This document shows positions 25,667-56,843 of a DNA stretch of 64,000 bases, piece after piece; positions within the stretch are counted from its first letter, which is position 1, and each line of letters opens with the position of its first letter. The stretch comes from Pseudomonadota bacterium (lineage in GTDB: Bacteria; Pseudomonadota; Gammaproteobacteria; Steroidobacterales; Steroidobacteraceae). Location: positions 1 to 64,000 of the forward strand of contig CANHFH010000003.1 of the NCBI GenBank assembly GCA_947459825.1. Reading direction: 5' to 3'. Made by a program: the position numbers and the translations under genes. The notes under the pieces are model-generated. The model was not told the origin of the DNA, ran no database searches, and saw only the letters and a program-made list of their open reading frames with translations.

Positions 25667-26326
25667 TCAGCCGAGCGTGCGCACGCCGGCGGCGCTGCCG
25701 ACCAGCACGACATCGGCGGGCCGGTGCGCGAACAGGCCCACCGTCACCACGCCTGCGATGCCGTCGATGGCGGTCTCGAGCGCGGGCGGATCGAGTATGC
25801 GCAGGCCGTGCACATCGAGGATCTGGTTGCCGTTGTCGGTCAGCACGTTCTCGCGCCACACCGGCTGGCCGCCGAGCTTGATGAGCTGCCGCGCGACATA
25901 GGAGCGTGCCATCGGGATGACCTCGACCGGCAGCGGGAAGCGGCCGAGGACATCGACGACCTTGGATTCGTCGACCACGCAGACGAACGTGCGCGACGCG
26001 GCGGCGACGATCTTCTCGCGGGTGAGCGCGGCGCCGCCGCCCTTGATGAGCCGGCGGTGGTGGTCGGTCTCGTCGGCGCCGTCCACATATACCTCGAGGT
26101 CGCCGGTGCGGTTGAGGTCGAGGACCTCGATGCCGGCGGCTTTGAGCCGGGCGGTGGAGGCGTCCGAGGAGGAGACGGCGCCCCGGATGCGGTCGCGCCG
26201 CGAGGCGAGCGCGTCGATGAAGAAGTTGACCGTGGAGCCGGTGCCGACGCCGATGACCGCGTCGTCGTCGACGAACCTGAGCGCCGCCTGCGCCGCCGCC
26301 TGCTTGCCTGCCGAGGAGTCCGTCAT
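25667..26326 (-). CDS. rpiA: Ribose-5-phosphate isomerase A
   Basis: A 219-residue isomerase interconverting ribose 5-phosphate and ribulose 5-phosphate. Standard motifs are [15 protein letters not shown] (phosphate loop), [38 protein letters not shown] and [13 protein letters not shown]. It works in the same pathway as rpe at 21495. It opens a two-gene unit with yghU. The region upstream holds the lysine-rich mini-gene and its terminator, so rpiA must have its own promoter just after that hairpin. Confidence 0.97.
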
Positions 26327-26372
26327 GGGCGATTCCCCCGTGTTTTCCAGCCTTTTCCGTGACCCTAAATGA

Positions 26373-26396
26373 AGATGCCCGCTTTCGCGGGCATCT
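26373..26396 (-). terminator. Terminator of the lysine-rich mini-gene
   Basis: A perfect 10-bp stem AGATGCCCGC / GCGGGCATCT with a four-base loop (GAAA on the minus strand), followed on that strand by TCATTT. A smaller hairpin (GATCC...GGATC, 26444-26457) lies right after the mini-gene stop codon. Confidence 0.7.
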
Positions 26397-26457
26397 CCTT
26401 TCTTACCAGAAGCGGTGGTGAGACTTGCGTCACGCCCACCGAAGATCCCGAGGGATC

Positions 26458-26508
26458 TTACTTCTTCTTGGCGGCTTTCTTCTTAGCCTTCTTCTTGGCC
26501 TTGGCCAT
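26458..26508 (-). CDS. 16-residue lysine/alanine-rich mini-protein
   Basis: An ATG-to-TAA frame encoding [16 protein letters not shown]: ten lysines, five alanines and the initiator Met. On the minus strand it has GGAGAA about 7 nt before the ATG, a candidate promoter (TTGTTT, 16 bp, TATACT) and a terminator 60 bp after the stop, giving a monocistronic transcript of about 170 nt. The composition resembles histone-H1-like tails and the tail of the SET protein at 56259. The role is unknown; nucleic-acid binding is a guess. It could instead be an sRNA carrying a chance frame, but the ribosome binding site argues against that. Confidence 0.6.
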
Positions 26509-26543
26509 GTTGGTTCTCCAGTTACGGGTTAGTCCCGGGGCCG

Positions 26544-26571
26544 AGTATATACACGCGATTGTAAAAAACAA
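26544..26571 (-). promoter_or_regulatory. Sigma-70 promoter of the lysine-rich mini-gene
   Basis: On the minus strand TTGTTT (26571-26566), 16-bp spacer, TATACT (26549-26544, five of six). The stretch is AT-rich against a GC-rich background and lies 36 bp before the mini-gene ATG. Confidence 0.55.
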
Positions 26572-26580
26572 GCAAGGGGG

Positions 26581-27045
26581 TCAGACGAGCGACAGGATGA
26601 AGCGCCAATGAGACGGGTCGATCGGCGTGATGGAGAGCCGGTTGCCGCGCTGCAGCACGCGCAATCCGCGCAGCGCGCCACCCTCGTGGGCGCGCAGTTC
26701 ATCGAGCGTGATCGTCCTCGGAAAACGCTTCTCGAGGCGCACATCGACCTGATACCAGCGCGGCGCATCGCGGGTCGCCGCGGGATCGTGCGCGGGATGC
26801 TTCGGGTCGAGCGCGGTGGTGTCGGGATGGCCCGCGCGTACGACCTTCATCACGCCGACGATGCCGGGCTCCGCGCAGCTCGAGTGGTAGAAGAACGCCA
26901 GGTCGCCGACCGCGAACTCGTCGCGCAGCATGTTGCGCACCTGGTAGTTGCGCACGCCGTCCCAGCCGCTGGTGCGCTTGGGCGCTGCGGCGAGGTCGTC
27001 GATGCCGAACACCGACGGTTCGGACTTCATCAGCCAATGGTTCAT
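26581..27045 (-). CDS. EVE domain-containing protein
   Basis: A 154-residue EVE (PUA-like) protein. The start HWLMKSEPSVFGIDDL, then GVRNYQVRNMLRDEFAVGDLAFFYHSS and GIVGVMKVVRAGHPD, is the classic EVE signature. These domains recognise modified bases in DNA or RNA. It overlaps the fau stop by 4 bp and ends the zapA-6S-fau transcription unit, an arrangement common in related bacteria. The substrate is unknown. Confidence 0.92.
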   Translation of the reverse strand: MNHWLMKSEPSVFGIDDLAAAPKRTSGWDGVRNYQVRNMLRDEFAVGDLAFFYHSSCAEPGIVGVMKVVRAGHPDTTALDPKHPAHDPAATRDAPRWYQVDVRLEKRFPRTITLDELRAHEGGALRGLRVLQRGNRLSITPIDPSHWRFILSLV

Positions 27046-27674
27046 GTTCCGGCTCCGCTGCAGGAAAAAAGGCCTTTTTCGGTGACCACCGCATCGAGCG
27101 GGACATCGGTCGGCAGCGCCGCGATGGCCTCGGCCTGCTGGCAGGAGTGGGCCACCCCGATGAGCCGCGGGCCGCGCCAGCGGCGCCGTCCGGCGCGGAA
27201 AGCGAGCGCGCGGTCGTAGTAGCCGGCGCCCGAGCCGAGGCGATGCCCCGCCGCATCGAAGCCGACCAGCGGCATGAGGATCACCTGCAACCGCTGTGCG
27301 GCGCAGCGTGCGCCCGCCGCCGGTTCCGGGATGCCGTGGGGTCCGCGTCGCAGCGGTGCGTCGGCCGGCACGAAGCTCATGCGATGGTTCCGCGTGTCGG
27401 TGATGCGCGGCAGCCAGAGACGGCAACCGGCGCGCTGCGCGAGGGCGATGAAGGGGGCGAGGCTGATCTCGCTGCGCACCGCGAGGTAGACGCCGATGCG
27501 CAGTCCGGGACGCAGCAGGCCGGCGGCGGCGAGCTGTGCCGCGATGCGTCGCGCGGCGCGCGCCCGCTCGACGGGCGGCAACGCGGCGCGACGACGGCGC
27601 AGGTCCTGGCGCAACCGACGCCGCGCCAGATCGCGCGCGGCCGGCGCATCGCTGTCGGCGCCTTGTCGGGCCAA
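27042..27674 (-). CDS. fau: 5-formyltetrahydrofolate cyclo-ligase
   Basis: About 210 residues; converts 5-formyl-THF to 5,10-methenyl-THF with ATP. RRRRAALPPVERARAARRIAAQL aligns with the E. coli start region in pieces (RRRAALPP), and LGSGAGYYDRAL plus GVAHSCQQAEAIAALP are the substrate and ATP motifs. The start is uncertain: there is no ATG. I chose TTG at 27674, preceded by GGGAGAGG; this lies at the 3' edge of 6S RNA. A TTG at 27614 would give about 190 residues, closer to E. coli. The zapA-6S-fau order is conserved. Confidence 0.9.
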   Translation of the reverse strand: MARQGADSDAPAARDLARRRLRQDLRRRRAALPPVERARAARRIAAQLAAAGLLRPGLRIGVYLAVRSEISLAPFIALAQRAGCRLWLPRITDTRNHRMSFVPADAPLRRGPHGIPEPAAGARCAAQRLQVILMPLVGFDAAGHRLGSGAGYYDRALAFRAGRRRWRGPRLIGVAHSCQQAEAIAALPTDVPLDAVVTEKGLFSCSGAGT

Positions 27675-27677
27675 AAG

Positions 27678-27864
27678 CCTCTCCCTCGCTGGGCCCAGAA
27701 GAATCGAGGCGTCACCCACCTGTGCCGGTGCGGACCGTTGCTCTCGACACAGAGCAACAAGTGGGGCGGACTGCGTCAGGTAAGGCTTTCCGCTCGAGGC
27801 GGACTTGCACAGTGCTGACAGCAAATCCTGATGCCCCTGGGCGTTCCAACTTAGGGTCGAGAGG
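27678..27864 (-). ncRNA. ssrS: 6S RNA
   Basis: The gap between zapA and fau holds 6S RNA in most gammaproteobacteria. Here a 187-nt stretch (6S is about 184 nt) starts with CCTCTC and ends with the complementary GAGAGG, with several internal arms including the conserved-looking GTCCGCCTCGAGCGGAAAGC block and GTTGCTCT...AGAGCAAC. 6S RNA mimics an open promoter and holds sigma-70 polymerase in stationary phase. The ends are uncertain by about 10 nt; TATTAC at 27864-27869 may be a -10 box. An open reading frame runs through it but has no coding character. Confidence 0.8.
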
Positions 27865-27957
27865 TAATACCCGATCCGCTTGTCGAGCACCGCAGGTGAC
27901 GCGAACACACTCTACACCAGCCGCACCCGCGGTGGTGCAAGGGCGTGCGCGTATGGA

Positions 27958-36610: not shown

Positions 36611-36634
36611 CGCGCCCGTCCGTGCATTCCGACC

Positions 36635-36838
36635 TCGCCGGAGAGATCCGCCCCGCCCAGCGGCCGGGGTGGACGCCGAAGGCGCAAGTTTCCGCCCGGA
36701 AACGCTCAGGCAAAAGAACGGCAGGTCGCAGACGGATTCTGGAGAGCGATGGCGCAGCCCGTCAGGGCACGCCGTCCACCGAAGGGGAGCGGCCCGCCCA
36801 GCGAAGGCCCTATCTCTCAGGTCCAAAGACAGAGGGGC
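36635..36838 (+). promoter_or_regulatory. Tandem glycine riboswitch
   Basis: Two glycine aptamers in a row upstream of gcvT. The first (about 36635-36735) has GGAGAGA, then CCGAAGGCGCAAG, CGGAAACGCTCAGGCAAAAG and AACGGCAGG; the second (about 36738-36838) has TGGAGAGCG, ACCGAAGGGGAG, GCGAAGGCCC, TCTCTCAGGTCCAAAGACAG and AGGGG. These are the conserved cores of the family, with the short linker typical of cooperative tandem forms. Glycine binding should prevent formation of the terminator directly after it and so switch on the glycine-cleavage genes. Confidence 0.93.
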
Positions 36839-56258: not shown

Positions 56259-56843
56259 GTGACTATCCCCGAGATGCGTACCAGCCGCTGGATCGAAGTC
56301 CGCGAATCCCCCATCCATGGCAGCGGCGTGTTCGCCGCGCGCCGCATCCCGAAGGGGACGCGCGTCATCGAGTACCTCGGCGACCGCATCACGCACAAGG
56401 AAGCCGACGACCGTTACGAGGACCACGACCCGAGCGACAACCACACCTTCCTGTTCATCGTCGACCGTCGGACGGTGATCGATGCGGGGGTGAACGGCAA
56501 CGCCGCGCGCTTCATCAACCACTCCTGCGACGGCAACTGCACTTCGGTGATCGAGCAGCGGCGTGTCTTCATCGAGTCGACCCGCGTCATCGAGAAGGGC
56601 GAAGAGCTCGGCTACGACTACGAGATCGGCCGCGAGAAGGACGACCCGGAGAACGTCGACGAGATCTTCGCCTGCCGCTGCGGCAGCCCGAAGTGCCGCG
56701 GCACCATGCTCTATCCGGCCGAGAAGCCCGCCAAGAAGAAGAAGGCCAAGAAGAAGGTCGCGAAGAAGAAGACCGCGAAGAGGCCGGTCAAGAAGCCGAC
56801 CAAGAAGAAGACGCGCCGCGCCAAGGGCGGTCGCGGACGCTGA
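56259..56843 (+). CDS. SET-domain protein-lysine methyltransferase with H1-like tail
   Basis: A 194-residue protein with a full SET domain (about 10-125): SPIHGSGVFAARRIPKGTRVIEYLG in parts, RFINHSC (84-90) and GYDYEI (118-123), followed by a post-SET cysteine cluster (CxC...C, 139-146). From residue 156 the tail is almost only Lys with Ala, Pro, Val and Thr, like eukaryotic histone H1 or bacterial H1-like proteins. The start is GTG with AGGAG ten bases before. It lies between thyA and folA and ends 1 bp before folA. Targets in bacteria are unknown; the tail could bind DNA or be a substrate. Confidence 0.9.
   Translation: MTIPEMRTSRWIEVRESPIHGSGVFAARRIPKGTRVIEYLGDRITHKEADDRYEDHDPSDNHTFLFIVDRRTVIDAGVNGNAARFINHSCDGNCTSVIEQRRVFIESTRVIEKGEELGYDYEIGREKDDPENVDEIFACRCGSPKCRGTMLYPAEKPAKKKKAKKKVAKKKTAKRPVKKPTKKKTRRAKGGRGR

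Follow-up and report, generated by a model that had tools for sequence, protein, structure and literature searches.

The window, a stretch of 64,000 nt, carries between an EVE-domain gene and rpiA a frame of 16 Lys/Ala residues which, to judge from its pattern of conservation, is a protein-coding gene. It is probably an autonomous, translated oligolysine gene, orthologous to genes for bacterial H1-like proteins but miniaturised, whose product would bind nucleic acid or polyphosphate. At this one conserved locus, H1-like proteins form a size series from 195 residues to 14-22, the small forms being spread over more than one lineage, and this series allows the minimum of an H1-type tail that a cell requires to be tested directly.

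Organization of the locus

The mini-gene lies on the minus strand, a strand having been left unnamed in the sequence-only reading that first described it, and all of its parts are situated within 26575-26373. The minus-strand letters from 26575 are TTGCTTGTTTTTT. The promoter-like block TTGCTTGTTTTTTACAATCGCGTGTATATACT (26544-26575, minus strand) comprises a -35-like TTGCTT/TTGTTT region at 26575-26567 and a -10-like TATACT at 26549-26544. Across 30 aligned relatives of the family, TG and TATACT are invariant, and TTGCTTG and the T-tract are nearly invariant. Due to the fact that a generic sigma-70 scan of the locus revealed nothing above threshold as a promoter, the candidate promoter, proposed previously as sigma-70-like, rests on this conservation. 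The block is followed by a conserved leader, CGG..GGACTAACCCGTAACTGGAGAACCAAC (26509-26543, minus strand), in which a GGACTAA-like core and the GGAG of the ribosome-binding site (26519-26516) are conserved among the same 30 family members, GGAG being kept in 30 out of 30, in good agreement with the GGAGAA site proposed earlier.

The ORF (26458-26508, minus strand) extends from ATG at 26508-26506 to TAA at 26460-26458 and reads ATG GCC AAG GCC AAG AAG AAG GCT AAG AAG AAA GCC GCC AAG AAG AAG TAA. The encoded peptide is composed of 10 Lys, 5 Ala and 1 Met (n=16), exactly the ATG-TAA frame with ten lysines that had been described. Downstream of the ORF, the 3' UTR (26416-26459, minus strand) contains two small helices, one of which is a hairpin located at the stop codon (26459-26442), and is followed by AGATGCCCGCGAAAGCGGGCATCTTCATTT. 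The intrinsic terminator, AGATGCCCGC-GAAA-GCGGGCATCT with a T-rich tail (26373-26396, minus strand), is paired in the RNA fold as a GC-rich stem-loop with a stem of 12 bp, which bears out the strong hairpin terminator of the earlier description. Its GCCCGC/GCGGGC core occurs in 128 of the 140 short-form loci, and the gap between this core and the start of RpiA homology is as small as 25 nt.

All neighbours are encoded on the minus strand as well. The EVE-domain gene (26581-27045; Pfam PF01878, E=8.1e-49) is situated upstream, preceded by fau, encoding a 5-formyltetrahydrofolate cyclo-ligase (27042-27665, start approximate; PF01812, E=1.8e-31), and, farther upstream in the same gene string, by the 6S RNA gene (27709-27901; Rfam RF00013, 56.7 bits). 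The next gene downstream is rpiA, encoding ribose-5-phosphate isomerase A (25667-26326; PF06026, E=5.4e-58). A glycine riboswitch aptamer was also detected in the window at 36628-36731 on the plus strand (RF00504, 53.3 bits).

Conservation of the reading frame in the Steroidobacteraceae

A DNA search of relatives revealed the element in most genomes of the genus and family of the window. In the family set of 37 genomes (the window's own and 36 relatives), the gene was found in 32, i.e., in 30 extracted loci and in G034 and G035. All 30 extracted loci have an intact frame with an MA start, a KKK-stop end and GGAG just 5' of the ATG; together with a strong third-position bias (see below), this supports the claim of a complete, translated mini-gene, as far as sequence can support it. 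A pattern search of named genome contigs with TATATACT, the leader core and ATGGC yielded 119 loci, with carriers including Steroidobacter agaridevorans, S. gossypii, Peristeroidobacter soli, P. agariperforans, and Povalibacter uvarum, which identifies the family as the Steroidobacteraceae. Because ATGGC was part of the pattern, the start may be biased, though the frame that follows is not affected, and the DNA search is free of this condition. In every complete locus, a Lys-rich frame and the order fau-EVE-X-rpiA on a single strand were observed where the fetched DNA covers the neighbours. Apparent exceptions to the intact locus are explained by contig or stretch ends (L047, L100, and L103) and by unread bases (L119). 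Contigs labelled Klebsiella pneumoniae (L101), Planktophila lacus (L037), and Janthinobacterium lividum (L077) also carry the Steroidobacteraceae locus, and the metagenome bins behind them look mislabelled.

For the analysis of substitutions, 115 distinct versions were compiled, 114 from the family plus L183, a 58-aa form found in a different order. The frame is open in all 114 family versions, with lengths of 14-26 aa and, in a single case, 61 aa, and after the Met the 115 versions consist almost entirely of Lys and Ala. As would be expected of a translated mini-gene, Lys-rich frames with synonymous variation are present between rpiA and the EVE/fau genes of relatives: of the nearest-neighbour substitutions among the 115 versions, 28 fall on first, 22 on second, and 153 on third codon positions. 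Third codon positions account for 75% of these substitutions (binomial p = 2e-34, to be taken as a guide since the comparisons are not fully independent). These nearest-neighbour differences are not conditioned on the peptide; they replaced a synonymous test within sets of identical peptides, which was dropped because it is circular. Loss of the frame or of the ribosome-binding site with retention of the RNA would speak against translation, and the reverse was observed: the frame is kept, whereas the RNA between stop and terminator, including both 3' UTR helices, is rearranged or lost in relatives.

Five of the 37 family genomes lack a match. In G013, G015, and G016, rpiA is missing from the assembly, and in G030 it is cut at the contig end. 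In G019 (same genus; L311), no mini-gene, promoter or terminator was found between EVE and rpiA, nor a match elsewhere in the genome, and the rpiA region begins within a few tens of bases of the EVE gene. The mini-gene appears to have been lost in G019 and, provided that this assembly is correct, is therefore not indispensable. A family-wide gene of this kind can escape gene finders and profile libraries, being too small and too simple in sequence, and the promoter/leader block and the neighbouring genes, used as a query instead of the protein, offer a route to such genes.

Long orthologs in other families of the order

A sequence-only model comprising the promoter, the leader and the first eight codons (R1) matches in 100 of the 147 genomes of the order. 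Class-wide, in 274 genomes, three matches were found outside the order, each of them 5' of a Lys-rich ORF (58, 74, and 80 aa). Behind R1, the frame in 10 further families of the order encodes a Lys/Arg/Ala-rich, H1-like repeat protein of 47-195 aa, mostly 75-195 aa, the 47-aa form being a member of family f6; in family f9, a 140-aa form occurs without an R1 match. The long forms are preceded by a promoter block related to that of the mini-gene, fau (often EVE too) is located before them and rpiA after them, and most of them end in a similar terminator stem, typically xxTGCCCGC-loop-GCGGGCAxx. Because promoter block, leader, composition, terminator, and both neighbours agree, the short and long genes are taken as orthologs. 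By this comparison of sequences, the mini-gene appears to be a bacterial H1-like gene in miniaturised form, and its product appears to be among the smallest forms of such proteins.

When three of the long relatives and the 61-aa form were searched against Pfam and NCBIfam at E<=0.1, no family was returned, although the low-complexity correction may hide matches. Due to this lack of a curated family for the long orthologs, the label “H1-like” rests on composition and repeats. A class-wide check upstream of rpiA, covering 30 loci, revealed a Lys-rich ORF at only 3, of which two belong to the family of the window, and a Lys-rich ORF 5' of rpiA is thus mainly a feature of the order.

On a tree built from two genes only, RpiA and Fau, the Steroidobacteraceae (f1) cluster together as a single group with small forms. 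Further small forms of 20-35 aa, and one of 57 aa, occur in f15 in genera g37 and g39, which are on separate branches, whereas their relatives have 91-178 aa. This distribution would be most simply explained by repeated shortening. The single expansion within the family, 61 aa with KAK/KVKT repeats, is found in L025, which together with L143 represents one genome present in two collections; this form is a recent repeat expansion.

Alternative interpretations

The Lys-rich ORF could be the leader peptide of an attenuator of rpiA, in which translation of the lysine codons would set terminator formation and tie rpiA to lysine supply or ribosome speed. We regard this as unlikely. The arrangement itself resembles the leader peptides of attenuated operons, with a tiny ORF, then a terminator, then a gene on the same strand: where the fetched DNA has rpiA, the ORF is always directly 5' of it on the same strand with the terminator in between, and the short distance of down to 25 nt between terminator core and RpiA homology leaves little room for a separate rpiA promoter. 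Furthermore, the frame contains three KKK codon runs, and, on reading the sequence, partial pairing of a 3' UTR helix with the 5' arm of the terminator seems possible in the window's genus. However, the 12-bp terminator stem in the RNA fold is stronger than this possible alternative pairing, and the intervening helix, which is variable, is missing from L030-L032 even though the ORF is retained there. The expansion to 61 aa in L025 preserves composition, but not spacing. Unlike the leader peptides of attenuated operons, the orthologs in the same slot mostly have 75-195 aa in other families, far beyond leader-peptide size and with a similar terminator behind them, and rpiA is outside the lysine pathway.

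A small probability is likewise assigned to a basic mini-protein associated with the ribosome or with RNA in the manner of bTHX or S22-type proteins, instead of a nucleoid protein. Size and charge of the mini-protein resemble those of short basic ribosomal tails, and the GC-rich leader after TATACT may recall growth-rate-controlled promoters. Over the order, however, the length ranges freely from 14 to 195 aa, unlike that of a protein held in a fixed ribosomal pocket.

It is tempting to speculate on a partner encoded in the same window, a SET-domain protein of 194 aa with a C-terminal Lys/Ala-rich tail (56259-56843, plus strand; PF00856, E=4.5e-24), whose gene is located between thyA and folA. 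A search for relatives of this protein was positive in 35 of the 37 family genomes and negative in all of the 23 other genomes of the order that it covered. If an H1-like protein had been cut to an oligolysine whose charge is tuned by this family-specific lysine methyltransferase, the two would represent a minimal bacterial chromatin-modifying pair in the Steroidobacteraceae, which we consider quite improbable. The co-occurrence of SET gene and mini-gene is suggestive only. The mini-gene is present and the SET gene absent in G031. In f15 genus g39, where small forms occur as well, the SET genes are only distantly related (31-34% identity), are not located beside thyA, and are devoid of a Lys-rich tail. 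In view of both observations, an obligate partnership with the SET methyltransferase is not supported as a general rule.

A dual-function or non-coding small RNA with an incidental ORF would be in line with the strong folding of the 171-nt region (z = -5.4) and with compensatory changes in 6 of 18 predicted pairs. It is nevertheless very unlikely, since the structure score is largely owed to the terminator, the RNA between ORF and terminator is not conserved, and the frame, with its third-position bias, is intact in every complete locus; as the main product, a non-coding RNA is contradicted by the codon-position bias together with the unconserved 3' UTR. A chance ORF in an intergenic region, for which the very short, low-complexity frame and other Lys/Ala-rich stretches in the genome (e.g., the tail at 56730-56771) might be cited, is contradicted by all conservation results, with the frame intact in every complete locus, and is thereby ruled out for practical purposes.

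Proposed function and comparison with known H1-like proteins

For the preferred reading, an autonomous H1-like mini-gene, the following mode of action is proposed. The mini-gene's own promoter would be strongly transcribed and most transcripts would stop at the terminator, resulting in a short mRNA from which many copies of a disordered peptide with a charge of roughly +10 would be made. Irrespective of sequence, this peptide would neutralise and bridge the phosphate backbones of DNA, structured RNA or polyphosphate, in a mode likened to that of an H1 tail or the AlgP C-terminal domain, though with three KKK clusters compared to twenty or more. The rpiA transcript would arise by read-through of the mini-gene terminator; rpiA is probably fed in this manner because it is situated very close behind the terminator. 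By analogy, the product is most likely a disordered oligolysine coating nucleic acid. Binding of nucleic acid is favoured over binding of membranes, since membrane activity is less likely for a peptide of H1-like ancestry with no hydrophobic residues other than Ala. Due to the far lower avidity of a 16-mer compared to a 150-mer, the function could have shifted.

The mini-gene product shares with bacterial H1-like proteins a composition dominated by Lys and Ala, joined in that class by Arg, Thr, Val, Ser, and Pro, without a folded domain, and short KKA-type repeats of varying number, here (A)KKK(A) units in proteins of 14-61 aa within the family. Its 16 aa are outside the usual length of roughly 80-240 aa, which most orthologs in other families have, and neither the HC2 profile (PF07382) nor another curated model is matched by the three long relatives and the 61-aa form. 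A literature search, thin on subscription papers, revealed no report of members of 14-22 aa or of the mini-gene locus.

Hc2 is a DNA-binding protein of 165-237 aa whose size is set by repeat number (PMC2848022). Like Hc2 (hctB) of Chlamydia and the Hc2-like proteins of Bordetella and Burkholderia (PF07382), the protein described here is a polycation of Lys-rich repeats, pentamers in case of Hc2, with a size that follows repeat number; unlike Hc2, it has 16 aa, even its long orthologs gave no match in Pfam, and the likeness need not reflect common descent. AlgP is described as binding DNA, and it localises to polyphosphate granules (PMC9239181). The C-terminal domains of AlgP (AlgR3) and PhaF of Pseudomonas have the same H1-tail-like Lys/Ala composition, but their tails come after a folded domain and consist of KPAA repeats, and here, too, the likeness need not be due to common descent. 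In Xanthomonas campestris, XC_1860 (86 aa) and XC_4203 (83 aa) appear as histone H1 entries that match HC2 weakly (PMC8578834). The long orthologs are of the same kind and size as these small, H1-like, gammaproteobacterial proteins, whereas the protein in the window is about five times shorter; this likeness is one of kind and size. By composition, the long forms belong among the known bacterial H1-like proteins, while the size of 14-22 aa appears to be new, as does the slot shared by the mini-gene and the H1-like proteins of 47-195 aa in other families.
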